NCBI GenBank assembly: GCA_964035015.1
Contig: OZ035997.1
Location: 17,447,923-17,511,922 of the forward strand
Direction: 5' to 3'
DNA from: Corallium rubrum
Lineage: Eukaryota > Cnidaria > Anthozoa > Scleralcyonacea > Coralliidae
DNA length: 64,000 nucleotides
The notes under the pieces were generated by a model, which was not told the origin of the DNA, did not search any database, and was given only the letters and a program-made list of their open reading frames with translations. A program made the translations under genes and the position numbers. The first letter of the stretch is position 1, and each line of letters begins with the position of its first letter. This document shows, piece after piece, positions 40,419 through 61,440 of this stretch.

Positions 40419-40522
40419 ATTGGACGCAGGAGCATCCGAACCCACAAAAGGAGGGTTGGGGAGACGATCGCCAACCGGGGATGAGTCCCGAGAGTGTAGA
40501 TTACCCTGGTTAGCATAATTAA

Positions 40523-40578
<56 letters not shown>

Positions 40579-42162
40579 CGTCATCGTTGTCCGGCAGTGG
40601 AAACAAATCAGGAAGCACAGCAAACGAATTATGGTTAGCAAACGGAGCCAGCGGTGGCGCAGGTCGCGTATTGTGGCGTACAGCACACAAAAGAGGCTCA
40701 GGAGACTTTGGAGCCGTATTACCAGGGCGGGGCGTCCTACTAGAGAGCCGATCCCTACTCTGGGTCCTGGGCCCGCTACCATTGTCGGAGTCCATGGCAG
40801 AAATACCACGAGATTTGGTTCGCCTAGAAATAAGGGTAAAACCATCAGAAGTGAGGGTGGAGGAACCACCAAACCGCAGTGGGGGGAACCAACTCAGCAC
40901 CAGAAGGGGCCGAGGTTTCTGGAGCATCCGAGATAGGGAGCACGATATCGCGGGATGAATCCGTTATCGGGTCATCCCCAGGGACGTCTGGAGGAAGAGG
41001 AAAATCTTTGGCAGGGATAGTCCCGACAAGCTCAGCCTCATTGGAGGCTTTCTTGCACGAGCTTGGATCCGATAGCGGATCCTCGTCACTCGGGGAGCGA
41101 TGACGACGTTTTTGCCCAAGAGAGTCTGCCACAACCATTGGAGTCGCAGTACTTGGAGACTCTAACCCAGGGTCTGAGGACCCCAAAGGGACGTTCGATG
41201 AGGAAGGATGCAATCCCGAGGGCACACCACCCAAAGGAGCCACTCCCGGAGGAATGTCCCGAGCACAAGTGACTGTCGGCACAAGCGAAGTTGCCGAAGT
41301 GAGGCCCACAGACGTGGGGTCAACCACCACTGAGGGGTCCTGGGGCACGGTTGCACCAGAGGGGTCCAAAGATCCCAAAGTAGGGCGACCAGAAGGAGGA
41401 TCATCTACCAAAGGGTGGACCTGAGTAGTGGAGACAGTAGGGGGAAGAACCCACAGAGGCATGACCCCCAACAGGGGGGTTATCGGTAGTGGGTGTACCA
41501 TGTGGAGAAACCGCCGAACCTGGACCATGGCCGCCAACAGGAGGAACAACCACCTGGGGCGACCAGGACCCACCAGCCACGGAAGAATAAGAGGTGGATG
41601 AATCGTGAGAACCCTCAGCGGGGGGATCAACAGGAGGATCAGGTTCTGCATTAGGCTTCTGGGCGGGACCCCTGGAAGGGCAGTCAGCACTTTGGTGACC
41701 AGGCGTACCACAACGAAAACAAGTGGGGATCTGGCCACGGTACCAAATTCTACAAGAATGGCCCTTGATGACTAGTTTGGATGGGATCGCCACGTGAATA
41801 GCCATAGGGACCGAAATGGTACCTGTATAAACTTTATGGGTGACCTCACGTTTCGAGTGATGAATCAACCCATAAGGAGACAGAGCACGATGGACTTCGT
41901 CCAAAGGAATGCCATAGGCCAGCCTCTGTACACTGACCCAGGTACGGGAAGATATGTCCATCATGTTCGGGGTCGTAAAACAAATGCGCCAGCGATCCTG
42001 GGCGAGGATTTGAACGCACTCAAAATAAATGTCGAGGCGATCAATCCCGAATTGCTTCCCGCGAGATCTAATTTAACTTCCTTGTCGGTAGGGGCAGGAC
42101 CACCCGCAAGGGCCTGCTGGAAGCAGAACATAAGCCGAGCGATTGGCATATGGTACGGACAT
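40419..42162 (-). pseudogene. E ORF1: RNA-binding protein with zinc knuckle and poly-Asp tract
   Basis: The probable start is MSVPYANRSAY (42,162), which aligns with MAIPFSNRS of A1. Frameshifts fall near 42,070, 41,480 and 40,900. The middle frame has WVSVQRLAYGIPLDEVHRAL (RRM-like) and CFRCGTPGHQSADC, a complete CCHC knuckle. A Pro/Ser/Gly-rich part follows. Near the end, (ATC)n DNA encodes about 17 Asp residues. Confidence 0.75.
40524..40576. repeat. (ATC)n microsatellite encoding poly-Asp in E ORF1
   Basis: About 17 ATC repeats. On the coding strand they read GAT, giving a run of Asp near the ORF1 C-terminus. Other frames give poly-Met and poly-Ile, explaining odd open frames here. Confidence 0.9.
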
Positions 42163-42351
42163 CTTACGAAGCTGAAGAAAATATACCTAGGCTAATCCTA
42201 GAGTATCAACACACACAAAAAAGCAAAGGTGACTCACGGTCCGCAAAGTGACCACACACAGCCAGCTTCGTAGGATGAACCAGGGCCAAAAGAAAGGAAG
42301 ACCAGCAAGAGGTCTGGACAGCCACCGCCGATCCCTGCGAGGGGAGGCACG

Positions 42352-45300
42352 AATCCTGAACCAGATGACCAAAGACTGCAGGCCAATATCTATTAGGATG
42401 CGGTTGCATAATTTCTGTTTGACAAGTTCAGAGAGATTTCGTTCGTTGGTCGTTGGTTCAAAAGTTTTTTTGTTGCGGGTTGTCTGGAGGACTGTGATGA
42501 TCGTACCAAGGAGATACAGTAACAGTGGTTTGGCCGGGGTGGTGTCCGGTAGCTCTTGCGCGAAGAGAATGTTGTTAAAGGACGGTTCTATGTGTTTCCC
42601 TCCAATGGCGGTGAGGTAGAGAACCATGTCGTTCCATAGTTCTTTTGCTCGTTTGCAGTGTAAAAGGGCGTGCTTCGTATCTTCATCTTCAGTGCAAAAG
42701 GGGCATTTTCGGGATATCTTCATCCCCCACTTGGCCAAATAGATCCTGGTGGTTAGGACTCTGTGACTAAGAAGCCACATAGTCTCTTTTTCTTTATTGC
42801 CTAACAGTGAGTACCAGATGTTTTCCCAAACGCTGGTGAAGCTCCCTTTCCAGTTGAGTTCCCGTCTCAGTATTTCACGGCTCTCGGTGTATCTGTCTGA
42901 TCTTGGAGGATTTGGGCCAATTTTCAAACGCTGAAGTGCGTTCTGTCGAGAGATTTCAGTACGGTTTTGTGTTTCGTGATCATGGTTGTCATGTTGCGGG
43001 AAGTCAGCGGTATTGACGTTGGATCAGCGTGTGGCTTACGTGGTGACCGTAGCCATTTCCAGTCATCGCGTACCGTACTTAGCGCGAGGCCAAGCCAGTA
43101 GCGCGCAAAGTGGAGCCATATGGCGTTGTACGAGCTGTCCGTTATCAGTTTTAACCATTTCATCCGTGCTGCCTTGGTTCGGGAGAAAACGTCCGGGATT
43201 GCTAGCCCACCATCCCTAAGAGGCCTCGTGCATGTGTCTCGAGCCACTAGTTCATTCCGGTCCCTCCATAGGAAGGTGAAGATGGCTCGGTTGACTCGGT
43301 TGCAGATGTTATCGGAGACTGTGAAAACCGTCGCCAAATACATCAGGTGTGCTAGAAGGAAAGTTTGGACCAAGGTGATCCACCCGACGATCATAAGTGA
43401 CCGTTTGGACCATCACTCAAGAGTCGTCTCCAGTTTCTCGGCTTTGCTGACCCAATCCTGGGTCATTTGGTTGCCGATAGTGGAGCCGAGAACTTGTATG
43501 TTGTTTTGTTTCCAGTTGATTGCCACCCGGCCGTGTGTTCATCCCGCGTGTTCCCCGATATAGGTGCCTTCGGTTTTGACCATGTTCAGTCTACTGCTCG
43601 TGGCGAGTTCGTATTTATGGATGACCTCGAAGCTGCGTATGATTGATTGATCGTCTTTTAGCGTAAGCGTGCTGTCATCTGCGTACTGCGATATTTTGCT
43701 TCTTTTAGTGGGTCCAGGAACCAAAACTCCCTCGATGCCAGGGTCATTTCGAATCGCGTTGCCCAATGCCTCGCTCACCACTGTGTACAGTAGGGGAGAT
43801 AGTGGGCAGCCTTGTCGGACTCCTCGTCGTAGAAAGACCGGATCTGAGAGCCAGCCGCTGTTCAGAATGTTGCACTGCGCATCCGCGTAAAGAACTGAGA
43901 GCCAGTGGCAGAAGGACATGCCAAAGTTCATTTTACGAAGCACTCGTAGCAAGAAAGTCCGATTTACTCTGTCGAACGCCTTTTCTTGGTCGATGTTGAT
44001 TAGGACCACGTTGTTGTTGTTTGCTGTTGCTGTGTAAGACATGTCCCGTAAGCGTAAAATGTTCTCGAAAATTGTCCGCCCTTTTATACCGCAAGTCTGG
44101 TCTTCGTCGATAACGCCTGGCAGTACCGCTTTCAGTCTGGTAGCCAAAATTTTGGCCGCGATCTTGTAATCGTTGTTCAACAGAGAAATCGGCCGCCAAT
44201 TTTTGAGCTGGGTTTTCGGTCCTTTCTTGTATAGGAGACGTAGTAAGGCTTGTCGTTGGGTGTTGGTCATGCTGTTTCGGTCGTAGTTGCTGTTTAAGAC
44301 GTCGAGCAGGTCGTTGGAGATTTCGGGGTAAAATTCCTTGCAGAATTCCACCGGGATACCGGTCCGGTCCTGGTGCTTTGTTGGTGTGTAGGTCTTTTAT
44401 GACCTGTTCCATCTCATGGGCAGTGAGTGGTCCCTCGCAAGCATCCCGGTCTGTAGGTGAAAGAGTGCGGGTAACTTGGGAGCAGAACCATTCTTGTAGG
44501 TCAGGGTCAGTGGGTTCGCCAGTTCCTCTATAGCGTTCATGGGTTGCTTGCGTTTTTCAAGGTCGAAAAATAATTTTGTGGTTTTCTCCCCCTGTTCGGC
44601 CCGGTTTGCATGACTCCGAATTTGGGCCCCCCGTATTTTGGCCTCCGCGATGTCAGATAGTTCTTGCTCTAGCTTCGAGACTTCTTGTCTTGACGGTACA
44701 GGTTGTCGTTTGAGGACTGTCAGTTTTTGTAGTAGGTCTCGCTCGTGTCTGTCGCGGTTGCGAGTTTTAAGTACACAGTGTTTTATTGTGATTGTTTTGA
44801 TCTTGGTTTTGGCTTTATCCCACCATTCTGCGACGTCCGTATATTCGTGTTTGCGTAAACGCCAGAAGGCTAAGAAAGTTCGGATTTCTCGTTGTAGTTC
44901 TTGTCTTTTAGTATGGAAGTGTTCATTTTCCAAACTCCCCGCCGACGCATCTTGTGTGGTCTGAACTTAATCTGGGTTTCGATGACGGAATGATCGGAAT
45001 GTGGACAAGCTCGAATGCAAGTCTGTGCGTTGTCGTTGTACGTATGTGGAATGTACCACCTGTCTAGTCGAGAACGTAGTGAAAAGTCACGGTTATGCCA
45101 CGTATAGATCTTGTCATGTGGGTTTTTTTGTCGCCAATTGTCGTTGAGTTTAAGTATTGTTGTAAAGTCCTCAAGTTCTATTGAGCCAATTGTGCCACTG
45201 AGGGGATTTCCCCCGAATTTGTCGAGATCGGGTTCTGGAACACAGTTGAAGTCCCCCCAATTAGCAGGTTGTCTCGGCCTGTCAGGAGGGTCCAAAGGTT

Positions 45301-45679
45301 GTCGAAAAATATCTTGCGTTGTGTGGGTATTGTTGGCGTGTAAACGGTTGTGATGTTAAGTTGTAGGTCAGTAGCGTCAGGCCTAGAGATAGTACCCGAC
45401 CGTCGTTGTCTCGTTTCTGTGCTGTTATGTCAACGTGGTGTTTCGGATGAAAAAGAATTCCCACCCCCCGACTATGGTTGTTGCCGTGGTTCCAGACAGC
45501 TTTCCCCCCCAGTTGGTGGTCCATGTGATTGTCTCGTGGTCATTTGAGCTGTGCGTCTCTTGTAAGCAGTACACGTCAGCGTTCAAAGTCTGTAGGTAAT
45601 TAAAAATAGTTTGTCGTTTATTGTATTCTGCTATTCCATTGACATTGAGAGTGATAAGTTTTAGCTTATTTTGGGCCAT
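42352..45679 (-). pseudogene. D ORF2: APE endonuclease and reverse transcriptase
   Basis: The start is probably MAQNKLKLITLNVNGIAE. Endonuclease blocks are YCLQETHSSND, GDFNCVPEPDLDK and CPHSDHSVIETQI. There are frame changes near 45,450, 45,290, 44,900, 44,400, 43,560 and 43,390. RT blocks are [31 protein letters not shown] and KISQYADDSTLTLKDD (catalytic pair intact). The knuckle CPFCTEDEDTKHALLHC follows. It is truncated just before the expected C-terminus. Confidence 0.8.
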
Positions 45680-45772
45680 CGGGTAAGAAAGGGTTCCGAA
45701 TTTTGGCATGAGAAATAATTATGTCCCCCTGTCCTCGTGGTCATTTCGGATTTGGGTCGTCACTACCAGGAT

Positions 45773-46882
45773 TCATTGGTGGACTTTGGTCGTCTCGTGA
45801 CCTCTTGGCTCTATTTGATCTTTAGTATCATCTTTCGAGTGTTCGGTGGCGGGAAATCCCTCTGACGATTCCTCGGTTCGTAGCTCGTCTTGCGTTGAGT
45901 TTTCTGTCGTTTCGCCAGTGGTCATTTGTTCGTCGTGGTTTCCAGCGTCTTCTGGAGTTGATTCGGTGTCGTGGGTCGTCGTTGTTTCGTGCGCAGTCAC
46001 CGCCGCACTGGTGTTAGTGGTTGTCCGGTTTACCGAATTATGGGCTTCCCCTGAGTCTCGTTGATTGTTTTCACCCGAGCGCGGGTTGTCTTCTTCTTCG
46101 ACTCTGTCGTCTATTCTTTTGCCGTTTCAATTTTCATACACATGTGTCGACCGCCAATCGTGTTTCGTTGGTCGCGTTCTCCCCGATCAACGGAAATTCG
46201 TCGCGATAAAAATCGCATTCCAATTCGTGGTGGCCTTCTGCGCCGCAGTGGTAACATTTCTGATGAGGACAAGAAGCCTTGCTGTGGTCTGGTGAACCAC
46301 ATTCTCGACACACTTTCCCCGCGGTGCAGTCTTTCGCGATGTGACCTGTTCCTTGACATTTACGGCAGGTTTTTGTTTGCCCCTCGTGATCGATTCGGAC
46401 TTGGCCCTTCCCGACATAAATAAACGATGGTATAGCTTTCTTAATGTGTCTATTTCAGCCACACGGACTCCGGTTTTTACTTCGCATGACCGATCGTATT
46501 GATCGCGGACGTATTTCACGTCGCCGTAGAACCTCAAAACAAGTGTTAGCAACCCTGGGTCTGAGTCAAGGGGAAAACCAAACACGCGAACTCTCGTATA
46601 TGTCTTTATCGGTTTCGGTGGGTTCGGATGACACAAGATGACTTCTTTATTATTTACTTTGATGGTCTTGCCTACGTGCGCGTTTCGGTCTCTTTTAGTC
46701 TTAAACACCACAAACCACTTGTTCTTGTGAGATTTATCGATTCCTTCGATCTCCGTCACTGGAATACTGGATTCTCCGAGGCCTTTGATGATTTCTAAAC
46801 GAAAATTGATCGAACCCGCTACAGTGGCCGCATCATTAATATTCCCGTCGAGAATCACATACAGCGATCTGAGCCTAGACAT
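45773..46882 (-). pseudogene. D ORF1: RNA-binding protein
   Basis: The frame 46,882-46,187 begins MSRLRSLYVILDGN. It contains an RRM-like region (TYTRVRVFGFPLDSDPGLL) homologous to B ORF1. The knuckle region that follows is split by frameshifts (about 46,440 and 46,200). The C-terminal part (46,000-45,773) is Thr/Glu-rich. It ends about 95 bp before ORF2. Confidence 0.7.
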
Positions 46883-46963
46883 CTTCTTCTCTTTGTCCTT
46901 CGCCCTAGTACCAAAAGCTACCAGGTAGTCATGTGAATTTTCTTTGAAAAAAGTTGCTCGGCG

Positions 46964-47057
46964 AAAAAGCTATGTTTTGCCCAGGAAGAAGCTGAAGCAA
47001 CGATGTGGTTCGGCCCAGGTCAGCCCACGCGGTCGAAGCGTCTGAAAGAAAAAAAAG
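46964..47057 (-). promoter_or_regulatory. Orphan U2 promoter region (U2 start deleted)
   Basis: This matches the spacer between 5S and U2 in the other units up to 12 bp before the U2 start, where LINE D begins. The PSE octamer AACCACAT lies at 47,003-47,010. A transcript from this promoter would run straight into the D leader. Confidence 0.7.
47003..47010 (-). promoter_or_regulatory. Candidate PSE of deleted U2
   Basis: AACCACAT, the same octamer found at -58 of the other U2 and U1 genes. Confidence 0.6.
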
Positions 47058-47064: not shown

Positions 47065-47183
47065 TGTCTACGACACGGGGTATTCCCAGGTGGTCACCCA
47101 TCCAAGTGCTAACCACACCCGACCGGGCTTAACTTTGGTGATCAGACGAGAACCAGTGCTTTCCCGATGGTATGGTCATAGAC
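47065..47183 (-). rRNA. 5S: 5S ribosomal RNA gene, copy 2 (diverged)
   Basis: Same length (119 nt) and helix I (one G-U pair: GTCTATGAC at the 5' end). It carries several substitutions against copies 1 and 3, for example GGTGTGGTTAGCACTTGGAT, GTCTGATCACCAAAGTTAAG and ACCATCGGGAAAGCACTGG. It may be a pseudogene or a variant class. Box regions are largely kept. Confidence 0.88.
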
Positions 47184-47331: not shown

Positions 47332-47496
47332 AAGGGAACGAGCGCGAACGCAGGTCCCCACTACCAGAAATTATATGCTCGAGTTACCCACATTTGGGGT
47401 AATGGCAGGAGTCAACCCAGTCGAAGTGCAATGAGAGGGCCTCATCCTGAGAGGACTTCCTTGTTGATCAAAGTACCTCTCGCGTCAGGTAAGTAT
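47332..47496 (-). ncRNA. U1: U1 snRNA gene, copy 2 (intact)
   Basis: 165 nt, the usual U1 length. ATACTTACCTG at the 5' end pairs with 5' splice sites. GATCAACAAGG is the U1-70K loop, ATTGCACTTC the U1A loop and AATTTCTGG the Sm site, then a terminal stem (GGGACCTGCGTTCGCGCTCG). One of two uninterrupted U1 copies in the window, it lies 148 bp upstream of 5S copy 2. Confidence 0.95.
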
Positions 47497-47554: not shown

Positions 47555-47864
47555 AATAGGGTAATTTGTCAGCAACTTCATTTCGGCAGCCAGAATGTGG
47601 AGTAAACAAAACTGACGAAAGAAACGTGCTTACCCCTCTCGGTCTTTAACAATGGTGTTGTCGTACGGCGTCGAACCCGATGTGTGCGGGTGGACTGAAG
47701 CGGCGGCGGTGAGGCGCTGGATCGTTGCTGGGTTTTGTTGATATCTGTAAAATATAAACAATTGATGTGCAGAATTAGTGGAAGTAAGGAAGCCGTGAAT
47801 ATTACTTGTGCTGTTGATGAGTTTTTGCTTTATTTTCGATGGTGATGTTCTTCCCCAAAGGGAA

Positions 47865-48013
47865 GAGGGCCGTACTTGGAGGTAGTGCGATACCGAGACA
47901 ACCCGTGGGCAGGGCGAAGCAAGCTTCAATCCCTTGGCCAAAGCCGAAAAATCAGTTTAATATATGAGCCAGGCGTTGCCTGGCATATCAGATATTACGC
48001 TGATAAGAACAGA
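47865..48013 (-). ncRNA. U2: U2 snRNA gene copy 3, 3' part (nt 39 to end)
   Basis: Starts TCTGTTCTTATCAGCGTAAT and runs through the Sm-site region to the terminal stem. LINE H abuts at 48,014. The missing bases just before are the branch-point recognition sequence. Bases 23-34 lie at 53,410-53,421 and bases 1-27 at 55,103-55,129. Confidence 0.9.
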
Positions 48014-48484
48014 ATTCTTATTAAAACCTAAGTGTTACGTTAAAGTTTTAGGTGTGTGTCAGGTCGAAAGAGGTCGCGTACGTTCATTGATGTCGTAGCT
48101 TCCTGTAGGCTATGTATGTGTGCTAGTGACGTCTTATTTCATGTTTTACTAGTTTTGGGTGTCTGCAGTTTGAAATGAGGAGGATTAAGCTCATAGAGGG
48201 TTGGGTTGTCATAATCTCCTGTACCTTATAGTATGAGTCCTAGTGACTACTATGTATTATCATAAGTTACGTTAGGTGCCATGAGTTGGCAAGTTAAAAG
48301 TTAAAGTGTCTGCAAGCATGTCCGCCTAATGCGGTAGTGTTTCGTACTCTTCTGATGTAGTGCCAAAGGCAGATTAAGGAGCGCCACAGCTGAGGTGTTT
48401 ACGGTAGATATCGTTGGAGCCTTGGATGACATCTGAACAGCAGAGTTTTCGAAAGAGGTTTTTGTACGATTTGGTCATACCCAG
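48014..48484 (-). other. H 3' UTR
   Basis: About 470 nt without coding content. It ends TTTTAATAAGAAT directly before U2 nt 39. It has no similarity to the Keno-like 3' UTRs that I could see. Confidence 0.6.
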
Positions 48485-51400
48485 TCAGCGGAGGACTTTC
48501 TCATTATTGGCGTGCCAGGTGCCAAGTGAGCCGATGACGAAACCAAAGACTTCGCACTGTAGGTTGAGGGACTGAAAATGTTGCTTGAGTACATCATATT
48601 TCTCCAGTTTCCATTGTTCTGCTTCTTCCAGTGCTTCAGAGCCATTGTCAAAGGGGCAGCATAGATCAATGATTGACACCTGATTGCCATCGCGGATAAC
48701 GATGTCAGGGCGGAGGAGAGAGTTGGAATCATTGACAGCCTGGTCAGTTGTTATTTCACCAAGGCAGATGGCATTCATTAAACGCTCGACGATCTTATCG
48801 TGTCGTTGTCGGATCATGACCATGTTTGGATTACAGTGGTTTAGGACGTGTGGCAGGGTTTCTTGTTCGTCGCAACGTCGGCATTGTGGGGATGCGTTGG
48901 ACCATCTGTGTTTATGGGTGTTGAGGCTCACACAGTTTAACCAAGCCTTGTGAATGAAGCGCCAGTCCTGGAAGCGGAGATTTAGGCCAGTGAAGTGCCA
49001 GGAGGAGCCATTGGCGAACTTGTCTTCGTTTAGCGCTCGTGCTACTTTGCCTTGATCACGCAGCTGTCGTAGTTGGTGCGAGGCGCGTTCTCGGACGTGG
49101 TGGTGGAGGAAATGGCATACTTCGTGAGGTTGGATGGGACCAGCGTCAGAGGTGGAGATGGTGGGTTTGCAAAGTTCTGGGACCTGGATAGTGATTTGGA
49201 GATTCCGGGCAGCCTTGCGGGTTCGGGTCCAGAGAGAGTTTGTTCAATATCGGATCTCGGCTAGGCGGTCGTCGTGGATGGAGGAGAGGTAGTTCGAGGT
49301 GAGATCAGGTGTTGGATTATTCTTGGAGGCGTGGTGGACGGTTTGTAAGAGTTCTCCACGGGCCACACCAGCAATAGTCGGATCAGTAGAGGACAACATC
49401 TTGACGGCTTGGACGACAGTCAATATGTCACACTCCTTGATTGGATCTTGGAAACCCAGTCCTCCAGCTTGGTGCGATGCGAAGACGTAGCTGGTTGTTG
49501 CTTGAGTAGGCAAGTCACAGATCTTCCGGACGACGTCAACCAGAGTCGAGTGGTAATTGTCCAGGGACTTCTTTAGGGGAGCGCCTTCACGGAGAGCGTA
49601 CGTCAAAGATGGCTGTACGAATGTCCTGATTGCGTCGAGTTTTTGCCATGGCGTAAGGAGGGATTGCTCGATTTTGTGGAGGTCTGGGATGAGTTGGTCT
49701 ACCAGTTCAGGAAGGTTGTCGGGATTGTGGACCAAGCCAATTGGGACGCCAAGGTCCCAGTAGTGTTCATCTTCTTCGAGGGCAGGAAAAGGTTGACCTG
49801 AATGAGAAATTCGTTGATCTCAATTCTGTTAGGCGAGCGTTTCGAGTTTGGGAAGCTTAATGAGGCACATTTATCTTGGTGGAATTCGAGGCCAATGACT
49901 GACGCTGAAGATGACACCACGGCCAAGAGTGCTTCGAGGTTCTCTTTACGTCGAGCGATGAGGACCAAGTCATCCGTGTATGCCAGGATGGATAGGGGTA
50001 GACCATGGTGTTTGGCTGGTGCTTTCTTGAAGGTGGCGGCGGTAGACTTAACCTTCTGGAGGACAAGTTCTAGCGTCAGGTTAAAAAGGATAGGGCTGAG
50101 AGGACAGCCCTGTTTGATGCCCGCGTGCATTGGGATGGTCTCGGTCAGGCCTGCATCAGTGCGGATGGTAGTGGTGGCATTGGTGTAGGAGTTGCGGATG
50201 AGTTCTACCAGATCCGGAGGAACCCCCATGTGGTAGAGGGTGGTGGTGATGACAGCGTGCGGCACGCTTCCGAAAGAGTTTCGAAGATCTAGCCAGGCTA
50301 AGATGTCTTTCTGGATGTGGCGAGCATCTCCCACCACGGACTGCAGGAGGAAGCTGTGTTCGTAGCAGCTCTCGGTGGGTCGGGCACTTTTGTGCTCCGC
50401 TGAGGGGAGGTTGTTGTCAATTACCCATTTAGTGATCCTGCGAGCCAGTATGGCCATTAATAGTTTGTATATACAGGACATTAGGGCAATAGGCCGGAAG
50501 TTTGATGCATCAGTGGTCTGGCCTTTCTTGTGGATCAGGATTGTTGTTGCCGTTTTCCAGATGTCGGGCACGTCCTTTTCCACAAAGCATCGGGGGAAAA
50601 TGGTGGCCAGGATATTGCATTTCTTGTCGACCATTCTGAGGTGTCGGTATTCCACTTGGTCGTGGCCTGGGACCGAGTTAGCCATGGAGCGGAGCTTCCT
50701 TTCGCGTTCTTCAGGCGTTGGTGGAGCGAATAAGCTTTCATCAGGCTCAGCCGAAGGAACGTGTTCATTTAGTTCAGTGATAAGGGTCTCCGTATCGCAA
50801 GCTTTGTGTTTGAAGACGTTACAGAAGAAAGTCTCGGCGTCAGCAGTTGTGCCATTGTAGATAGGGCTGTTGTCCCCAAGACCTTTCTGGCAGCTCGTTT
50901 CCAAGAGTGACGGTAGAAGGCTTGAAGGTGTCTGGCCTCATTCAGGTCGAAACGGCGGTAGGTGTCCGAGTGCGGACGAGCCGACGGACGGTCGGGACGG
51001 CGTGGAGCTGGATGGTGAGGTCGCGTGGCCGAGGCAAGTTTCGCTGTCTCGATGCAGTGAGACGAGAGCTCTTCACAATTCGCGGAGAAATCCTCCCAGG
51101 AAGACTCGGCCGAAAACACGAGAGACCAATGGTTCCGAAAGTTTGCAAGTAATTCGGCTGTTTCGACGGTCGGGAAAGATTCCGCTGCTGGTCCTTCTCC
51201 AATAGGACTAGGTGGGCCAGGCTGGTTATCTGCGTTGGTCGGAGGTGTGGGCGATGGGTTCAGGTTTGGCCGTATCAGGAGGTTGTTTGGTCTTTGTTTT
51301 GGTGGTGGAGGTGTGAACTCGGCGCTGGTGATCAGGCCATGTGGTTGTGGTGGGTCTCCGGTCCCTCTAGGGCCAGGTGTAGCTCTACCGCAGTCTGAAT

Positions 51401-52465
51401 ACGTAGGTCTGGTTCTGGGCGTCGTGTGGTGGTGGAGGAGGAGGTGGTGGGAAGGATATTGGTTGATGGTCAAAATAGTCGGAGGCAACTGGACGCCGTT
51501 GTATGGATCGCCAGAGTGGAAGATCTGGTGTCTGCAGGGAGTATCGGTTCAGCCACGGTGGTAGGGCAGCCTCTGGTGGTGGGTGAGCTAGGTGGGGATA
51601 TAGCCTCTGAAGAAGCACTTGCTAGGAAACGGTGGAGGATCCCCTGGGTTTTTTGTGTCTGGTCCCGAAGCATGGGAGGTTTGGAATTCTGAGGCGTGGT
51701 AAGATGGTTGAGGAGAGGATGCATAGAGGTGGGAGAGTCAGGGACACTATCATCTGTGGTGGAAGGTGGGACCAAGGATGTGTCAGCGGAACCGGGTGGA
51801 GTCGCGGAGGAGGTGGCTGAGCAGACTATGTTCGGTGTGGTAGGGAGACTTGTGCTCGGTGTGGCAAGGAGGCCCGTGAGGGTGACTTGTGCCACGCTGA
51901 CAACGCGGTGGAGTGGTGGCGAGATATGGGCCTGCGGTAACTTGGATGTCGTACGTGGTGGTGAGGCAGGTAGGACGTTTTGATGAACATCACTATCGGC
52001 GAGGAATCACTGAAGCAGGGTTTGGTCGGGTTCATCCTGGCTCAGGTAGGTAGGAATATGTTGCAGTGAGCTTGGAGGTAAAGGTTCGGACCGAGCGGCG
52101 GCAGCTGGGTCTGCTGGTGGAGACTCCGGAACAATCGCCAAGCGAGTCGAGGACGGGTGTGAACTGTGGGAGCTCAATGAGGATGGCGAGGTGGTAGTCG
52201 GTGCCGTGACGGATGAGGTTTCTGACGTCATGTTGAGTGCTACGTGGGCTCGCGAGTACTGTGTAGAGGCCTGGCGATACGATAGAAACTTTCGTGGGCA
52301 GGCTGAGCAGGTAGTCGGAGTGTCTGTGCGGATGGCCTTATGTACCTTTCGAGCATGTTCTTTGAAGGCCGAAGTGTTCCTCTGTAATCTGGCGCATGCC
52401 GGTGCCGGACATGGTAGCCCAGTGGACGGGAAAGGGACCACACAATCGAGAGTCAGCGAGGCCAT
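48485..52465 (-). pseudogene. H ORF: zinc fingers, reverse transcriptase, restriction-like endonuclease
   Basis: N-terminal part (52,465-52,007): two C2H2-type fingers, CPAPACARLQRNTSAFKEHA and CSACPRKFLSYRQAS, likely for target DNA recognition. A Pro/Ser/Thr-rich linker in shifted frames follows (51,895-50,769). RT (50,904-49,699): RPIALMSCIYKLL, GIKQGCPLSPILFNL and AYTDDLVLIA (Thr in place of the usual Ala; catalytic Asp pair kept). Thumb region 49,735-49,244. C-terminal endonuclease (48,931-48,485): CRRCDEQETLPHVLNHC (CCHC), RPDIVIRDG and IIDLCCPFD, the PD-(D/E)xK-like residues. About five frameshifts. Confidence 0.82.
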
Positions 52466-53409
52466 CCAAGAGCCAGGGAAAGAAAGAGTGAAATACGAGC
52501 ACGATGAAAATCGCCGAACAAATATAAGTCGTAATTAAAATCACGAAACAACAACCACAGTAATAAGAAACACAGTGAAAAGAAGAGCGAACGAAAGAAA
52601 ACCCATGTTCAAACGCCCACAAAAAGAAAACTACAAAATTAGGATAAAATGCAAATTCAGCCCGAACGCACTGACCGTGTCGGAAACTTTTTTCATATTA
52701 ATAATAAGGCTAAACTGAACAGATTCCGACTAGCTCGGTACTTGGATAACCCCTAGTCTTCGCTAGTCAGGAAAATAAAAAGGTTAATGTCAAATAATAA
52801 AGGAACAACTCTCAAGGTATAATTATGAGAGCCGCGAAAACGAAAGAAGAGCCTACTCACAGGAATAAAAACAAAGAGTGAAAATAATAAAGCGAAGGCT
52901 AAACGAGGCGAAGTCACCGTGAACCGGCGAAGTCATCTCGCGTAGAATTCGCTGCGAAAGCAGAGAATAAGCGCCTATCGCTATAAGCGTTAGACTAGCG
53001 TCTTCTCCGTGGTGTCAGGCTAGGCAGCAAGTGTTCTCAAAGAATGGCCAGGCCCTGAGGTGCTAGTGAGAGCTAATGACAGTCTTCTTCCGAGGAAGTC
53101 GACCGCCGCTAACGCGTATAGCGAACTGAACTATAGCTCTGGTGAATGGACAGTTGCTTGAGCGCTGCTCAAACAAGTGTCTAGACACCGGTACTGTGTA
53201 GCGAACCTTACTAACTTTCGAGATCAGTCCGAAGACTGAAAACTACTGACTAGCAAGCGCCCTAACTAAGCGAGCGAGGCAAGGTCACAATGGGATCGCT
53301 GGCCGTTGAAAACCGGTCAACGTATCTCAAAAGGCAAAGCGCGAACGAGGTTAAACACCCGAGGACCTGATCTACTTCTCCGAAACAAAGTTTAGTTTAA
53401 AAAAACTGA
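52466..53409 (-). other. H 5' leader
   Basis: About 940 nt without a recognisable coding sequence, lying between U2 nt 34 and the first Met of the zinc-finger region. R2-type elements can carry a self-cleaving ribozyme at this place. I found no obvious one by eye, though several stems (GGCCAGCGATCC, TCAGTCTTCGGACTGA) exist. Confidence 0.5.
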
Positions 53410-53421
53410 ACACTTGATCTT
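53410..53421 (-). ncRNA. U2: U2 snRNA gene copy 3, 12-nt middle piece (nt 23-34)
   Basis: AAGATCAAGTGT on the minus strand is left between the 3' end of LINE G and the 5' end of LINE H. Its first five bases (AAGAT) repeat the last five of the 5' piece at 55,103-55,107, so they form the target-site duplication of G. Confidence 0.85.
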
Positions 53422-55102
53422 GTTTTGAAGTTAAGCCCCTTCAGGATATAAAGATGCCGGCAGTGCAAATGACATCGTGAATCCCTAAGTGCAAGGAACT
53501 ATTCCATGGAGGTGGCTTACGCGTGCCACTCAGACCAAAAGAGGATGCGACTCTCTCTCCGTTGCACCAGAAACGACAAAATGGTCACCCAGGACCGATC
53601 CACTTAAACCGGACCAGCCGAGGGAGTCCGGAATGGATGGTGATAAGGAATGCGCATGAGATGCCAACCCACACCTAATCCTCCTCAACCTCGACCGGGC
53701 GGACATGCCGCAAGGTACACCGACGGATCTCCGACCCTTCCTCAGTGAAGAGGATAGCCTTGTCCGAAAGCAAGTCATGGTCGAAGACCACACCCGAACC
53801 CAAAAATGCGCGAATCTCATCCCCCCTATGCTGCAGGTGGATCTGCCAGGCAGGCGGCAAGGTATCCAAAGGATCCACATCATCGCCAAAAACCTCGCCC
53901 TCCTCCACAAAAACGTAGGAAGCAGCGACGAGACGGTAATCCGAATTTTCCACACTACGTGGGTAATCGCGGTCCAGAGCTGCACGAGATTCCACATGGA
54001 GCTCGTGAAGGAACTGCACAACCGGATCATCGGAGGCCACACCGACAGTGTGGGGACCCACAACAGTCTCCATGGCCCCGACAACCGGTGCCGAGTCCAG
54101 AGGTGGATCCAAAGAGCCACCCATCGCAGGGTCGATGTCCAAGGCGGGTTTCTTCTCGAGTGGCTCAGAGCCACTCGACGAATCCTCCATCACCTCGACG
54201 GCCCCTGGCTGGGACGAAGAAGGGGCATCCGAAGCGGTCACGACCTTCTTCGACTTCCTCCAGTGGTTACGCTTGCGTCGACGCTTAGGCCCCGTAAGGG
54301 CCGCGGCGTCAGCGCCGTCACCCGAAGGACTTGCCTTCGTCTTCGTGGCAGTGACCTGCTTCTTTGGGCAGCGGCGGGACTCATGTCCAACCACTCCACA
54401 ATTGAAACAGGTACGAGCATGCCCCTGGTGGTAGACCAGCCCAGCATGACCGCAGATGCGAACACGCGTCGGGATGGCCTCTCGAAGCTCCATCAAAATC
54501 TTTACTGTCCCAGTCCTCATGTTCCGGAACAGCACGTAGACGAGCTTACACACCACCCCATAGCGACCGAAGAATACTTTCAATTCCTCCTCCGGTATGC
54601 CATAGGGCAGGTGCGTCACGGTGATCCAACTCTTCTTCTTGTAGGAATAGGGCCGGACCACACACGGAAAGCCACGGATGGTGATACCAGTCGCGATGAC
54701 CTCCTCCAAAATCTCCGGTGACTGGCACCAGAGACGGAAGCGATCAGAGCGCAAAGACTGGATCTGGGCGAAGAACTGGCTCGCAGGAGAGAATTCCTTC
54801 TCTAAAGCGTCCCAGACTTCCCCCGGCGACAGCTTCGGCTTCCCCGCCAAGGCCAACTCGGGAACGGTGACCACGGCGCAGTGTTCTGGGTACAGAACTA
54901 CGACCAGGGAGGCTGGAAGGTCCCGAAAAGGACCACTACTGGGATTGCTCCCAGTAGCACGGTCACCAACTCGTAGAGGGTAAGGCAGTGTTACCAGCCT
55001 GTAAGCTGGAGCATGGATCCACCACCTGTACCCTATCAGCACTCGTAGAACTTGGTGTTGCCATCAAGAACTCGTAGAACCACCAAAGATAACTTCGATC
55101 GA
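53422..55102 (-). mobile_element. LINE G: ORF1-only, internally deleted Keno-like element in U2 copy 3
   Basis: A 1.68-kb element with intact junctions on both sides: U2 ...GGCTAAGAT then the G leader, and TTCAAAAC then AAGATCAAG. AAGAT is a 5-bp target duplication. It has a leader with the family motif GTGGATCCATGCT, a single complete ORF1 and a 250-nt 3' region. ORF2 is missing. It was mobilised with full ends, so it may have used the RT of other copies (non-autonomous). The 3' end keeps the GTGGC/GCCAC hairpin (53,512-53,529). Confidence 0.82.
53675..55042 (-). CDS. G ORF1: intact RNA-binding protein with zinc knuckle (455 codons)
   Basis: The only uninterrupted ORF1 of this family in the window. 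The first Met lies in the leader motif (MLIGYRWWIH); a later Met cannot be excluded. The RRM-like region carries WITVTHLPYGIPEEELKVFF. The knuckle CFNCGVVGHESRRCP is complete (CX2CX4HX4C). Basic RRRKRNHWRKSKK follows, then an acidic part with a Val/Glu-rich C-terminus (RPVEVEED). By family it should bind element RNA in a ribonucleoprotein. The intact frame suggests a recent insertion or selection in trans. Confidence 0.8.
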   Translation of the reverse strand: MLIGYRWWIHAPAYRLVTLPYPLRVGDRATGSNPSSGPFRDLPASLVVVLYPEHCAVVTVPELALAGKPKLSPGEVWDALEKEFSPASQFFAQIQSLRSDRFRLWCQSPEILEEVIATGITIRGFPCVVRPYSYKKKSWITVTHLPYGIPEEELKVFFGRYGVVCKLVYVLFRNMRTGTVKILMELREAIPTRVRICGHAGLVYHQGHARTCFNCGVVGHESRRCPKKQVTATKTKASPSGDGADAAALTGPKRRRKRNHWRKSKKVVTASDAPSSSQPGAVEVMEDSSSGSEPLEKKPALDIDPAMGGSLDPPLDSAPVVGAMETVVGPHTVGVASDDPVVQFLHELHVESRAALDRDYPRSVENSDYRLVAASYVFVEEGEVFGDDVDPLDTLPPAWQIHLQHRGDEIRAFLGSGVVFDHDLLSDKAILFTEEGSEIRRCTLRHVRPVEVEED

Positions 55103-55129
55103 ATCTTAGCCAATAGGCCGAGAAGCGAT
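55103..55129 (-). ncRNA. U2: U2 snRNA gene copy 3, 5' part (nt 1-27)
   Basis: ATCGCTTCTCGGCCTATTGG followed by CTAAGAT. The last five bases are the target duplication of LINE G. This copy shows directly that the Keno-like insertion point lies in the GGCTAAGATC region of U2. Confidence 0.92.
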
Positions 55130-55179
55130 AACGACCAATAAAAAAGTTATGTTTTGCCCGGGAAGAAGCTGAAGCAACG

Positions 55180-55187
55180 ATCTGGTT
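55180..55187 (-). promoter_or_regulatory. Candidate PSE of U2 copy 3
   Basis: AACCAGAT at -58, one base different from the octamer elsewhere. Confidence 0.55.
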
Positions 55188-55235
55188 TGGCCCAGGTCAG
55201 CCCACGCGCTCGAAGCATCTGAAAGAAATAAAAAG

Positions 55236-55733: not shown

Positions 55734-56013
55734 AATAGGGTAATTTGTCGGCAACTGAATTTCGACAGCCAGCATGCCGATCCAACAAAAATGAGGAAAG
55801 AAACGTGCTTATCTACCCCTCTCAGTCTTTATCGACGGTGTTGTTGTGCGGCGTCGAACTCGATGTGTGCGGGGCACTGGATCGATGGGTTCTGTTGATA
55901 TCTGTAAAATATAAAGAATTGATGTGCAGAATTAGTGGAAGGAAGCCGTGTATGTACTTGTGTTGTTGAGTTTTTGCTTTATTTTCGATGGTGATGTTCT
56001 TCCCCGAAGGTAG

Positions 56014-56178
56014 GAGGGCCATACTCGGAGGTAGTGCGATACCGAGACAACCCGTGGCCAGGGCGAAGCAAGCTTCAATCCCATGGCAGAAGCCCAAAAA
56101 TCAGTTTAATATATGAGCCAGGCGTTGCCTGGCATATCAGATATTAAGCTGATAAGAACAGATACTACACTTGATCTT
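56014..56178 (-). ncRNA. U2: U2 snRNA gene copy 4, 3' part (nt 23 to end)
   Basis: AAGATCAAGTGTAGTATCTG through the Sm-site region to the terminal stem. LINE F begins at 56,179. The 5' part of U2 and its promoter are not found at the far end of F, where array sequence stops. Confidence 0.9.
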
Positions 56179-56792
56179 GTTTTGGGTTAACTCTCACGAT
56201 TAACTATCAGACTCGACGGTGCAAATGAGCCCTGAAATCGTGGGAATGAGAGCTTTCCTGCGGAGGTGGCTACGAGCCACATCGATGTCACATGAAGGAT
56301 ATGAACCTTCCTCCACGTCAGAATAGACACATGGTTGTGCAAAGGGTCAAATGGGTGGCCTTATGAGACAAAATTAAAGAACCAATGAAAAAAGGCGTTG
56401 CGATATGATGAGCCCGCAGGCCGTGAGAAGACTCACTTCAGAACCTCACCGGGTGTTTGCCCAAATCGGAGGTGGACCTCCGGCTTAACGTCCTTATCCG
56501 AGAAGATGACGCCAAGCCCGAAGACTTGGGCTTGATATAAATATTGAAAAGGAGATCCCCATGCGGCCCCTGCGAACCCCTGTGAACAGGTTCCACCGGC
56601 GCTATCTCCTACACACAACCTATTTAAAACAAAAGGCTCAAAGGACCCAAACCAGAGTATGGGCCACGATGTTGGCCTGCCTCAACTGATACCGAACGGT
56701 ACCAGGAGGCACCTACGAAGTCGGTCTTTCCTGGGGCCACCGTCTAAAAAGAGGCTAGGAGTGGGCATCGCGCTAAAAAAGGTAAAAGAGCC
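56179..56792 (-). promoter_or_regulatory. F 3' UTR with conserved hairpins
   Basis: Hairpins GTGGCTACGAGCCAC (56,266-56,280) and GAAGGATATGAACCTTC (56,294-56,310) stand where A2 has theirs. CCTCACCGGGTGTTTGCCC (near 56,443), GGAGGTGGACCTCC (near 56,469) and AAGTCGGTCTTTCCTGG (near 56,720) are shared with A2 and E. Confidence 0.65.
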
Positions 56793-59700
56793 CTAGTGGC
56801 TATTGTAGATCAGGATGGAACACGAGAGAACCATCTGGAAGCACTGAACTGAAAATGCCGGAGGCGAGCCACACACTATCAAATATAGTTTCGCGGCTGT
56901 GACGGTGCTGCATGCGCAGCAGGAACCGAAAGGAGGACTTAACCGCAAGAATTGCCGCATCAGAGCACGGAGCCAATCCATCAAAACGGAATTGGTTTCA
57001 GGTCAGCCAGATACGATGACGAATAATGCCGAGTAAGGTAGAAAATCCGAGGGGAACGCTGGAACCACGGCCATATCCCACCAAAACGTTGCACGGTGAC
57101 GGGCGAGCCGCGGCAGGATCGAATCTGCGAAGGGGACAGAGAAACCAGTCTATATTCACTTGCGCAAAAGGGCACTCGGTAAGGAGATGAACGAGGTCCT
57201 CCACGGCGCCGCAAAAGCAAAGAGGACTGACACTCATGCCGAAACGGATCAGCCTATCGGCAGTTGGAAGAATTCCATGCGCGACCTTCCATGACGTATC
57301 TTGGACAGGGCGCAGAAAGCGCCAGAGGCCAATACACGCCCAGACGTATTTCCAATTTACCGTAAACCCCCAGTTACGGTATTTCTCTATGCAGCGGTGT
57401 TGGGTTTGAGTGGCATTACCAAGGATGGAATAAGCCGCACGAGCCGAAAGATCACTGAGAGGAATTGGATCCCTGGGCAAGCAAGGAACAATCCACTGGC
57501 CAAACGCTCGGCAACCACCCATGGCAAACCAAGCCTCCAAAACAGACCGGTAGAAAACAGGCAAGCGGTGCAGAGTCGCAGGGTTGACATGTTTTAAATC
57601 GAACACCCGGTCCACCGGGCTGGCCAAAAAAAAAACACGGCAAAGGTAAAAGGCAAAAAAGCTTTGCCATCCCCGGTGTTCACCACAGAGAAATCGTTTG
57701 ACCCACTGGGCATGGAGCGATTTAAGCTTATGGGAGACGTCAACGACCCCAAGACCCCCACGTTTCACAAGTTGGGTCACAGAAGTCCGGGCAAGCCCTT
57801 CGCGCTTCTTAGCCCAAACGAACGGAAAAATTACCTTGTTAATTCCGGAAACGACCGAATCAGGCATCGCTCGCACAGAACCCAAATACCAAAAGGTGCT
57901 CAGACCTAACATGTTAGTTATCAAGGCCCTACCCTGCAGAGGTAAGGTGCGATGAGACCAGGAAGCGAGTACCAATTCCAGTTTCTTGACTAGGGGACCC
58001 CAGTCTTCTTTTTCGTCGTTTGCTACGCGGCTACCCAAGGCAGTGATGTGTGAGGCAGACCAACGAAGCTGAACTGGGTAAGTTGAACGGTTCTTCCAAG
58101 GACCCAAAAGAAGGCCATAGCACTTGCTGAGATTTAGTTTCGCTGCTGAAGCAAGTTCGTAGCGGCCGAAAAGTCGGAACAGCGCCAAGACAGACTCATC
58201 CGAGGCAACCAGAGAAGACGTATCAACAGCATACTGAACGATTTTGACACGCTTTCGGCCCCCCGGAAGTGGAAAACCGTCAATAGTAGTATCAGCGCGG
58301 ATGGCCCAAGCTAAGGACCCGGCTACGAGGACGTATAATAACGGCGAAAGGGGGCAACCCTGACGTACCCCACGAGTAACCGGAAAGGACTCGGAAATGA
58401 AGCAATTGACGTTGACGGCCGAAAACACCTCAGAATACAGAAGGCAAATCCATTGGCGGCACGACGGAGCAAAACCCATTTTGGAGAGAACTTTCTCCAT
58501 GTACGACCAGTCGACCCTATCAAAGGCCTTCTCTTGATCCAATGAGAGGATTGCCGCTGGAATATTCTCAAGATTAGCGTAATGGACAACATCGTGGAGG
58601 AGACGGACATTCTCGCCCATAAACCGACCCGGGATACCACACAACTGATCAGGAGAGACAACCGAGGGGATAACGCGGAGAAGGTGGTTAGAAAGTGCTT
58701 TTGCCATGATTTTATAGTCAGCGCAAAGTAGCGTAATGGGGCGCCAGTTTGTAGTCTCTAGGGGATCCTCCTTTTTGTAGAGAAGAGTGATAACACCTGA
58801 GCGCTGAGACGAAGACAGCTTACCATCCTGATAGCAGGCGTTAAACACTGACACGAGATCAGCACCCAAGAGACCCCAAAACCGAACGTAAAATTCCGCA
58901 GGAAGGCCGTCAAGACCGGGTGCCTTTTTAGTGGCCATCTGTTGAAGCGCGAGCTTGCATTCATCCTCGGTCAAATCCCCCTCACAAAGCTCAGCCTCAG
59001 ATGGGGATAAGTGCCTTTCTAGCTTCTCAAGGAACTCAGGTTGCGCTGATTCCCCTAAGGGTTCGGAAGAGAAAAGAGAGAAGTAATAGTCTCTCCACAC
59101 TCGCAAAATGCCTAGAGTACTGGAGGCAATAGTGCCATCCGGTCGCTTTATTTCACTAATTAAGCGTTTCTGGCCGAGGATTTTCTCCTGGCCTAGAAAA
59201 TAGGCAGTGGAGGATTCACCTTCCTCAGCCCAATGAGTACGTGCACGTACCTGGGCACCCCTAGCATCAGCGCGAAGCACAGCAGCAAGATCAGCTTTTG
59301 CTTCGTCAAGCTCGAGAGAAACTTGGTCACCGTTATCCACACGCCACTGCAAATGACCGACAACAGCATTGAGGGACTTAATAGACTCTCAGACAGATTT
59401 CAACTTCTTTCGAGAAAATTCGCGGATGACGCGTTTTAAGCGGGTTTTGCCGGCATCCCACCATGAAGAGAGATGGTGAAACCAGCCTTTCTCCTTTTGC
59501 CAGGCCAACCAAAATCATTGATCAGGGCAGAGAAAGCTGCGTCCTGCAAGTGAGCGCAATTAAATTTCCATAAGCCACGCCCCCGTTCGACCTGCGAGGG
59601 GAGGTTAATCGTAAGGAACAAGCAAGAGTGGTCGGACCTAAAAAAGGGGGAGATATCTACGGACTGGACTAACCCAACTAGTTGTTGAGGCATCCAAATC

Positions 59701-60337
59701 ACATCAATCCGAGAACCCTGCACCCCGTTGGGGCGACGCCATGTAAAGTCGGATGCTGTTGGGTGTTTAACACGCCAAACATCACACAAATCATTGGACA
59801 ACATTAAATCGTCCAGGGCGGACGACCAGTTATAAGCCCAAGGCGATGAGGGATCACACCCAAAACGGTCCACGAGACTGTCAACCACCGTATTAAAATC
59901 ACCACATAGGAAAGCAGGGACATCCGGGTCAAGGACTTGGTAGAAGGATTCAAAGAAAGGTGAGCCGTCTCTTTTATTATTTGGCGCGTACAAACACGCG
60001 ACCTGAAAATTAAAATTATCTTGGCAGAACTCCGCTACAACTAACCTGCCATGGTCGTCCTTCCAACTTCCCTGTACACTAAAGCGTGGGAGGTACAAAA
60101 TTGCACGCCACAGCTTCGAGTTGCACCAGGGGATGACAAACATCGGTAGTTATTTATATTATTAATATTAACGTTATTTTTGTGAAACCATGAAGAAAAC
60201 TCCGCTTCTGAAGTGGAATGTGTTTCCTCTAAACAAACAATATCCGGTCTAAAACAATTAAGCCAGGACATCAGTGTCTGGTGGTGATCCAAAGCACGAA
60301 GTCCTTGGACGTTCAAAGTCACTACCGAAGTAGCCAT
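56793..60337 (-). pseudogene. F ORF2: APE endonuclease and reverse transcriptase with YAVD motif
   Basis: ORF1 stop and ORF2 start overlap (TAATG). Endonuclease in two frames (60,337-60,041; 60,143-59,436): TLNVQGLRALDH, CLEETHSTSE, FLCGDFNTVV, GSRIDVIWMP and FFRSDHSCLFL. A frame change near 59,500 and a stop near 59,390 follow. The RT frame (59,352-56,998, 784 codons) is open: [28 protein letters not shown], and KIVQYAVDTSSLV where YADD is expected. Asp-to-Val at a metal-binding residue should make it inactive. The CFCGAVEDLVHLLTEC knuckle and end (56,984-56,793, shifted) follow. Confidence 0.85.
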
Positions 60338-61388
60338 TAGGAGATTGAAGGTGGAGCCACAGGAGGGTGCAAAGGCTCCCTCGGGGGATGCTCATCACGA
60401 AGATTACCGGACTCAGTCAGAAGAGGAGAGTCATTGTCATCATCACATTGGTCCCGCAGAGCCAGGAAACGGTTGGCAAGAGCAGGACCACCGGAAGATT
60501 TGTCAAACGGGGAACGGCTACGATCCCAGACTAGACACTGGGCAGTGGGACTACGATCCCGAACCTGGGACTGGACCGAAGGTGCGTTACGATGGGGAGG
60601 GTTCCTACGTTTAGTAGTTATGACCGCTCCGGGGAGGCTAAATTGTTGCGAGGCTACAGCCGCAGCCGATACAGGGTCTTTTCTGTGGGCATGGTCTAAG
60701 ACATCAGACGGGTCCTCAGGGGTGACAAAATCCCCCTCGGAATCCGCAGGAAGAGCAAGAGACTCTGGAGGGATGTACCTATCGAGGAACTCATGGAGGG
60801 GCACGGATTCGTGCACTGGCTTGAATTTCTTAGGGGGAGGGGAATCCTCCCTGTCCGAACCATCGGAAGATGAGTGGACAGCCACTTCAGGCTCGTTGGA
60901 AACGGCTTAAAGAGAAGTTTCCATCTGCTGTTCCCCAGTGGGGCCAGAAGCAGACTTACTAAAAACCTCCAAGGGAGGGTCGATGCCCTGGGGTTCATTG
61001 CCCGCCGGTTCAGTGGAGGGAGGATCAGGCACATCCCCCTTTTTTTCCATGGGCGGATCATCAGAAAGGGGAACCAATCCCCATGAATTAGTTGCACTGA
61101 CAGAAGGCGGACCTCCTGCAGAGTGGATGAGTGCTGGGGGCAGCAGCCCCCTGAGGTAGATGGACCATCAACCCTACCCTCAGACGTGGGTACAAAAGCA
61201 CCTGATGCGGGCTGTTCACCAGATGGAGGGGCAGCCCAGCCCCTAGGACGGTTCTCCTGTTGCTGCTTGCGCGGACACGTAGAAGACTGCTCAGGTGAGT
61301 TAATGTCTGGGGCCAGTTTTTCCTCGACCCAGTAATTCCTTGGCTTTAAGTGCGCGGCCGCGTCGCTGTTTTTGACACTTTGCGACAT
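60337..61388 (-). pseudogene. F ORF1-like protein, N-terminal half unusual
   Basis: Two overlapping frames: 61,388-60,696 (MSQSVKNSDAAAHLKPRN start, then Pro/Ser-rich) and 60,885-60,337 (MAVHSSSDGSDREDSPPPKK, ending PPVAPPSIS). Neither carries the RRM-like region or CCHC knuckle. The second half resembles the acidic, Pro-rich C-terminus of the other ORF1 proteins. The first 30 codons could come from flanking host DNA at a 5' truncation point. Confidence 0.55.
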
Positions 61389-61440
61389 ATTTTGCGATTA
61401 CAAGATGGCGTTGCTAAACTAGCGATAGATGAGCGTAGTC

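Follow-up and report, generated by a model that had tools for sequence, protein, structure and literature searches.

Several LINE lineages at adjacent sites of the U2 snRNA gene in Corallium rubrum

Background

The classical pair of LINEs on one RNA gene is R1, which is APE-type, and R2, which is RLE-type. In arthropod 28S genes, R1 lies 60 bp downstream of R2 (PMC2718515). Site-specific LINEs are also already known from U2 genes, on which APE-type and RLE-type elements, Keno and Utopia, have converged (PMC4640811). Utopia comprises RLE non-LTR retrotransposons of U2 genes, described with a central reverse transcriptase (RT), a C-terminal restriction-like endonuclease (RLE) and one to three N-terminal zinc fingers; the 3' flank begins at nt 39, the 5' junctions are variable, including cases with no duplication and with 20-bp duplications, and tandem insertions have been reported (Kojima and Jurka 2015, PMC4640811). 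Keno is APE-type, belongs to the Tx1 clade and is U2-specific (PMC4640811, PMC6136364). Its 3' target is given as TCTGTTCTTATCAGTTTAAT (PMC6136364), and its 3' flank is identical to that of Utopia, the same target having evolved in parallel (PMC4640811). According to the 2015 paper, these two were the only elements that had been reported for U2 (PMC4640811). HAL1 (half L1) is described as non-autonomous, encoding the ORF1 protein only (PMC5753468), and Dada-U1 and Dada-U6 as DNA transposons specific for snRNA genes (PMC3706591).

Here we describe a U2 gene of Corallium rubrum that carries two LINEs, G and H, within a window of 64,000 nucleotides (the whole stretch of DNA analysed). What appears to be new relative to the systems above is a site at U2 nt 22|23, an ORF1-only partner, a third lineage, repeated double occupancy and a nested pattern of occupancy.

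Results

Layout of the window

The first-pass annotation had read the minus strand as U2 nt 1-27, G, U2 nt 23-34, H and U2 nt 39 to the end. Direct reading of this strand and mapping on a U2 reference gave the same order, exact to the base, with the last part extending from nt 39 to nt 192 (Table 1). The duplication of AAGAT (nt 23-27) that had been claimed around G is present on both of its flanks, and U2 nt 35-38 are absent at the insertion of H. The 12-nt island AAGATCAAGTGT has a chance expectation of 0.008 in 64 kb on both strands and sits exactly between the two element ends. The island itself is as annotated. As a correction to the spacing, the first-strand nicks that the 3' junctions and the way in which target-primed reverse transcription works would imply, 22|23 for A, B, C and G and 38|39 for H, are separated by 16 bp.

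Table 1. Features of the U2-U1-5S locus and its inserted elements (window coordinates).
Feature	Position	Strand	Basis
U2 nt 1-27 (5' part, left of G)	55103..55129	-	direct reading and mapping on 192-nt U2 reference
G, putative ORF1-only non-autonomous LINE, at U2 nt 22|23 with AAGAT target duplication	53422..55102	-	
Open ORF1 frame of G, 462 codons between stops, CCHC zinc knuckle	53675..55063	-	
U2 nt 23-34 island between G and H	53410..53421	-	
H, Utopia-like RLE-type LINE, broken frames, 5' junction nt 34, 3' junction nt 39	48014..53409	-	
H N-terminal region with C2H2-like zinc fingers	52010..52534	-	by eye
H reverse transcriptase piece, RVT_1, R2-like	49702..50937	-	
H piece, C-terminal half aligning with R2 zinc knuckle and restriction-like endonuclease	48488..49243	-	
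U2 nt 39-192 (3' part, right of H)	47860..48013	-	mapping; Rfam U2, 103.4 bits
U1 gene, whole, in repeat unit of G/H-bearing U2	47333..47496	-	
5S rRNA gene, whole, in repeat unit of G/H-bearing U2	47065..47183	-	
A, APE-type LINE at U2 nt 23 site of neighbouring U2 gene; 5' limit not fixed	56179..61397	-	
U2 nt 23-end behind A	56009..56178	-	
B, APE-type LINE ending at U2 nt 23 site; 5' limit approximate	36144..42299	-	
C, APE-type LINE between U2 nt 22 and nt 23, no duplication	27851..33855	-	
J, L1-group LINE; 5' end here at U2 nt -11; 3' limit approximate	42300..46964	-	

U2-U1-5S units are arrayed at this locus, and a further U1/5S pair precedes the G/H-bearing U2. Elsewhere on the contig (locus L020) there are 1,057-bp U2-U1-5S units with an uninterrupted U2, which represent the empty site.

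Element H

The best PDB matches of the H reverse transcriptase are R2 proteins (2e-27, compared with 7e-21 for LINE-1 ORF2p), and the C-terminal piece aligns with the R2 restriction-like endonuclease, again as the best PDB match (1e-9), which bears out the earlier designation of H as RLE-type. The reading frame is broken at several places. C2H2 spacing was recognized by eye in three H copies (the window copy, g17 and g18), and Pfam zf-C2H2 appeared, below the cut-off, in g18. When the last 300 bp of H were used as a query, 15 places were found genome-wide and all were scored; at 15/15 the element is followed by U2 from about nt 39, four of them having a variant last ~80 bp and three being followed by a short U2 piece, which in two cases leads into another H. 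The 5' junction is at nt 34, with the loss of nt 35-38, at four places and at nt 57-59, with about 20 bp duplicated, at eight; of the three places outside this division, two abut G-internal sequence and one is a partial unread match. At the 12 H copies with a readable upstream junction, H follows DNA that stops at U2 nt 22-24 in nine cases and directly follows another element already at nt 39 in the other three, suggesting that H needs only the part of U2 downstream of nt 38.

From its target site and domains, we assign H to the R2-group RLE LINEs as an element matching Utopia: the two are alike in the U2 3' flank from nt 39, the RT in the middle, the C-terminal RLE, the variable 5' junctions and the occurrence of tandem insertions. 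H differs in that the 4-bp deletion type and the ~20-bp duplication type coexist in this genome and in its positions relative to other insertions, 9/12 behind DNA ending at nt 22-24 and 3/12 behind an nt-39 element. A search for an HDV-like ribozyme in the 5' region of H or G (window 52300-55200, Rfam, E up to 1) matched only U2 itself.

Elements at the first site

Other elements of the window share the site of G. The APE endonuclease domain PF03372 was found in C and the RT domain PF00078 in A and B; in BLASTP comparisons the endonuclease regions of A and B match that of C, and the RT of C matches that of A. The RT of A matches LINE-1 ORF2p at 1e-49 and R2 at 7e-16. Judged by these matches, A, B and C are APE-type, L1-group LINEs that use U2 nt 22|23, like G. 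Relatives of A or of the U2 core were looked for in viral contigs and none was found.

All 22 listed site-1 junctions are at nt 23 or 24, and one further junction contains a mismatch. Among the 23 U2 5' parts in 262 kb (one match, nt -2 to 9, was discarded as chance), 17 stop at nt 22, blunt and with no duplication, so that the AAGAT duplication at the window G is unusual; the others stop at nt 27 (the window G), 24, 20, 15, 10 and -11, one each. A copy of C lies after CTCTTGGCT inside D (window 22217), which had hinted that site-1 elements use U2 upstream of nt 22; this idea was weakened by a tandem G|AAGAT|G without upstream U2.

Like Keno, the elements A, B, C and G represent APE-type LINE lineages specific for U2, whereas the 3' flank of Keno starts at nt 39 (TCTGTTCTTATCAG) and theirs at nt 23, 16 bp upstream. 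Because the published 3' flanks of Keno and Utopia both begin at nt 39, the target at nt 22|23 seems to be new for U2. A literature survey of titles and the openings of abstracts, covering few subscription journals and no Repbase, turned up no paper describing a LINE inserted in U1 or at U2 nt 22/23.

Element G

G contains one long open frame with a CCHC knuckle, which presumably fits the Tx1 clade, and nothing else recognizable. Its ORF1 protein is homologous to the ORF1 of C (6e-26) and of B (7e-20), and the 3' end CAAAAC is common to G, A/C and relatives. The window belongs to a eukaryotic assembly of 474 Mb, which made it possible to test site specificity. A query consisting of the final 300 bp of G, free of U2, found 26 places in this assembly, all of which were scored (genome-wide counts of repeat copies are lower bounds). 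Two were set aside since they do not reach the 3' end, and all of the remaining 24 continue into U2 from nt 23: 22 with at least 10 aligned U2 letters, one with AAGAT followed by a second G, and one visible only to AAGAT. With 24/24 3' ends of G and 15/15 of H entering U2, no copy of either element was found at an unrelated site.

Five G copies of about 1.7-1.8 kb, the window copy included, have U2 on both sides; a full-length G with ORF1 and no ORF2 is thus seen in the window, with four more copies of 1.7-1.8 kb. In comparisons of the window ORF1 with other G copies, dN was lower than dS in 9/9 computed cases, and the NG86 ratios of 0.28-0.76 indicate moderate constraint. Database searches with the RT of A and with the ORF1 of G, in each of which the best ~8,000 candidates were scored, yielded ten relatives of the G ORF1, all on contigs of 1.4-2.1 kb. 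The ORF1 homology, the two-sided U2 copies, the moderate constraint and the relatives on short contigs together make G best seen as an ORF1-only (HAL1-like) family that borrows an ORF2. The shared site and the CAAAAC 3' end suggest that a partner ORF2 would mobilize it. The first-pass annotation had called G an APE-type relative; the relationship is upheld by the ORF1 homology together with the shared site and 3' end, which have to carry the APE link because G itself has ORF1 only, with neither endonuclease nor RT. G and HAL1 are alike in being non-autonomous and encoding only ORF1, but G is U2-specific at every copy read and has an ORF1 of a zinc-knuckle lineage.

Elements J, D, Z and X

A further lineage, J, whose RT matches LINE-1 ORF2p best, is inserted at U2 nt 34/35 and once at nt 37/38. 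Its sister D is a LINE inserted in U1; D and Dada are both mobile elements specific for snRNA genes, Dada being a DNA transposon and D a LINE. In a midpoint-rooted RT tree of 20 pieces, chosen by hand out of many, the site-1 elements occupy eight rows (88/98, a group left open), J and D eight rows (100/98) and H three rows (100/96). Within J/D, five U2 copies stand together (92/95, also left open) beside one U1 copy (88/89), and two U1 copies lie outside. This arrangement, which has moderate support and depends on midpoint rooting, suggests a target switch from U1 to U2 in the J/D lineage.

The second site also contains Z, a short element without RT. We considered X as a separate site-2 LINE and rejected this, because its outer ORFs match Z (4e-13) and flank an RT/EN block; X is treated here as Z with a nested LINE, whose placement is unsure since long branches meet where it joins H. 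A dependence of Z on H was likewise rejected: an ORF between H-like ends elsewhere has a similar-looking CxxC, but BLASTP with E up to 0.01 gave no relation to Z or X.

Double occupancy

The arrangement G|island|H occurs at four places genome-wide, the window included. One of these has an island of nt 24-34 and an interruption within the 3' region of its G; for the copy at L041, the 3' side lies outside the sequence read. The claim that two unrelated LINE lineages converged on adjacent U2 sites is borne out by junctions, lineages and site fidelity, with the correction that the event is recurrent rather than single. In 262 kb, a second element stands behind the site-1 element in 7/23 U2 genes with a full 3' part (H in three, J-type in two and Z-type in two), and the U2 islands between first and second elements are 10-37 nt long. 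As in the case of R1 and R2, LINE lineages each occupy their own nearby site of one RNA gene; here, in contrast, the target gene measures 192 bp with 16 bp between the sites, three or more lineages take part, and genes that carry two elements are common.

With respect to the independence of these events, the nearest relative of the window G is a G that is not followed by H (91% identity, 100/100 support), rather than any of the other G|H copies, in a 15-row tree in which most other forks are open. Over its first ~900 bp, H is 89-97% alike in every pair, across subfamilies. Past this region, the H copies of the window, g17 and g18 are 34-45% different in two 300-column blocks. Between the H copies of the window and L041, the likeness is 92-96% for most of the stretch compared. 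The flanks on the U1/5S side differ by about 7-9% between the window and g18. These comparisons indicate that the window and L041 arrangements may share one origin, and that the four places would be explained by at least two, and probably three, separate H insertions.

Occupancy of the two sites in the genome

We searched for U2 segments with up to three mismatches and no indels. U2 nt 11-34 is contiguous in 30 genes, and the same 30 are whole over nt 19-52; the segment nt 23-52 is uninterrupted at 94 places, and nt 39-70 at 112. Among the 100 listed of these 112 U2 3' parts, 24 (20 on the minus strand and, by eye, four on the plus strand) are without nt 23-52 directly upstream by coordinates; 17 of them are site-2 junctions by sequence, and the other seven, one of which is at the edge of the live array, are candidates by their coordinates. 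Among the 100 listed, the second site is thus filled in at least 17 genes, and none of these 17 keeps the first site whole. Fisher's test gave P = 0.006 (0/30 vs 17/82), a figure that overstates the nested pattern because the 30 whole genes, as tandem copies with one and the same sequence over the stretch tested, do not form an independent sample. Of the 38 U2 3' parts in the live array (C1:17131840-17187922), 30 are in whole genes and seven lie behind a site-1 element (six G and one A-type); no site-2 insertion was identified among the 38, one edge copy aside. Since every gene found with a filled second site has lost the first, the pattern suggests a succession in which the first site is filled first, followed by H, J or Z at the second.

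Discussion

Very probably, several distinct machineries of target-primed reverse transcription use U2 nt 22-59 as a common landing pad. At the first site, the APE-type, L1-group lineage of A, B and C would prime at nt 22|23 and may also mobilize G in trans. At the second, H, an R2-group RLE element behaving like Utopia, would prime at nt 38|39 and cut the second strand either at 34|35, with the loss of nt 35-38, or at about nt 57-59, producing the duplication of about 20 bp. A site-1 insertion would leave U2 past nt 22 intact, so that the same gene could be struck a second time by H, J or Z. For the window gene, the most likely order is G first and H second. We also consider a wider reading, which we hold tentatively and would, on balance, slightly doubt: a 37-bp stretch of U2 would have been settled independently by three RT lineages (H at nt 39, A/B/C at nt 23 and J at nt 34/35) and by two elements without RT (G at the first site and Z at the second), with an obligatory succession in which second-site elements occur only in genes broken at the first site, and with a switch of snRNA target via J/D. 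As D, the sister of J, uses U1, target choice would have switched between two snRNA genes of one repeat unit.

The opposite order, in which H came first and G was inserted later at nt 22|23 of an H-bearing gene, is unlikely. The frame of G is open and that of H broken, which could mean that H is older, but over the length of G this is not decisive, and we did not adopt frame decay as a clock; G is also recent enough to be in the live array, where it accounts for 6/7 site-1 insertions. Against this order, genes with nt 11-34 whole carry nothing at the second site (30/30 being whole), and G would have had just 12 nt of U2 downstream. Slightly less credible still is a single compound gene, G-island-H, multiplied by unequal crossing-over, so that the four copies would represent one event. 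The locus is indeed a tandem array, all four copies share the island limit at nt 34 and a similar H 5' end, including the closely alike first ~900 bp, and the nt 27 junction is common to the window and L041. However, the G 5' junctions otherwise differ (nt 27 vs nt 22), the G copies are not mutual nearest kin as far as the open forks allow, H past ~900 bp diverges by 34-45% between the window, g17 and g18, compared with ~7-9% for the flanks of the window and g18, and doubles with J and Z also exist.

It is improbable that G is no family of its own but arose by truncation or decay of an A/B/C-type LINE: its ORF1 homology to B and C, the presence of chimeric copies in the array and a dN/dS that is not very low would fit such an origin, but not the five copies of ~1.7-1.8 kb flanked by U2, the 9/9 comparisons with dN below dS, or the confinement of all ten database relatives found to contigs of 1.4-2.1 kb. 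An assembly or cloning chimera is the least plausible explanation by far, even though repeat arrays are prone to mis-assembly, considering that the junctions recur at four places and that, in 262 kb, none of the 23 U2 genes is whole, while 20/24 U1 and 23/23 5S genes are without a large insert (a few are shortened or diverged at an end).

In this genome, the U2 gene acts as a busy target for mobile DNA of several kinds. The published list of such elements is short (Keno and Utopia in U2, and the DNA transposon Dada-U1), and the locus extends it by a U1-specific LINE and a U2 site that is apparently undescribed. It constitutes a natural experiment on how LINEs find their targets. Each double insertion means that one enzyme of the pair acted where the U2 sequence broke off within 10-37 nt, so that genomic sequence can reveal how small a target may be. 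The host retains 30 whole U2 genes, all in a single live array, next to a large stock of broken copies, and this coexistence makes competition, succession and tolerance among site-specific elements testable.

Insertions in U2 genes and copies of element H

Coordinates of several of these features are given in the table below. One U2 gene (contig C1, 17402748-17395736) contains, as its third insertion, a hAT-like DNA transposon with DUF4371 and Dimer_Tnp_hAT domains, at which U2 nt 75-82 are duplicated (8 bp). An ORF of the short RT-less element Z at the same locus (L035) and an ORF between H-like ends at another locus (L021) both have a CxxC...H motif when read by eye; Pfam gave no match for either ORF, and BLASTP found no relation between the two.

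In H, the Utopia-like LINE of the R2 group, the first ~900 bp (window 53409-52510) are 89-97% identical even among those copies whose sequences just beyond differ by 34-45%. A small contig carries two H copies (C192:81874 and C192:95831) separated by 14 kb; their flanks are identical (about 110 bp compared), and this pair looks like a segment duplication.

Table. Coordinates of the features (L035 and L021 in local coordinates)
Feature	Position	Strand	Remark
hAT-like DNA transposon	L035 6083-8848	minus	in U2 gene
ORF in element Z	L035 1618-2331	minus	Z at U2 nt 39
ORF between H-like ends	L021 2426-3265	minus	
U1 nt 1-27 before D	window 27324-27298		
D, window copy	window 27297 down to 22226		
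D or relative, second place	C1:17309348-17304091		
D or relative, third place	C1:17292020-17286569		

Insertions in U1 genes and LINE D

A U1 gene is interrupted by a MITE-like insert (window 35552-34359) with the ends CCCAGCTAACA...TGTTAGCTGGG and a 2-bp overlap at U1 nt 65-66.

At window position 22217, a copy of C begins within ORF2 of LINE D, directly behind CTCTTGGCT, which resembles CTATTGGCT of U2. This copy is possibly an off-target insertion by an element that otherwise targets U2 nt 22|23.

In all three places seen, D or a relative begins within a U1 gene, behind U1 nt 27. The far side is U1 nt 28 at the second place and U1 nt 23 at the third, giving a 5-bp overlap; the window copy has lost its opposite flank. 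No description of a U1-specific LINE was found in the literature searched (titles and the openings of abstracts); the D lineage, as seen at the three places, is such a LINE.
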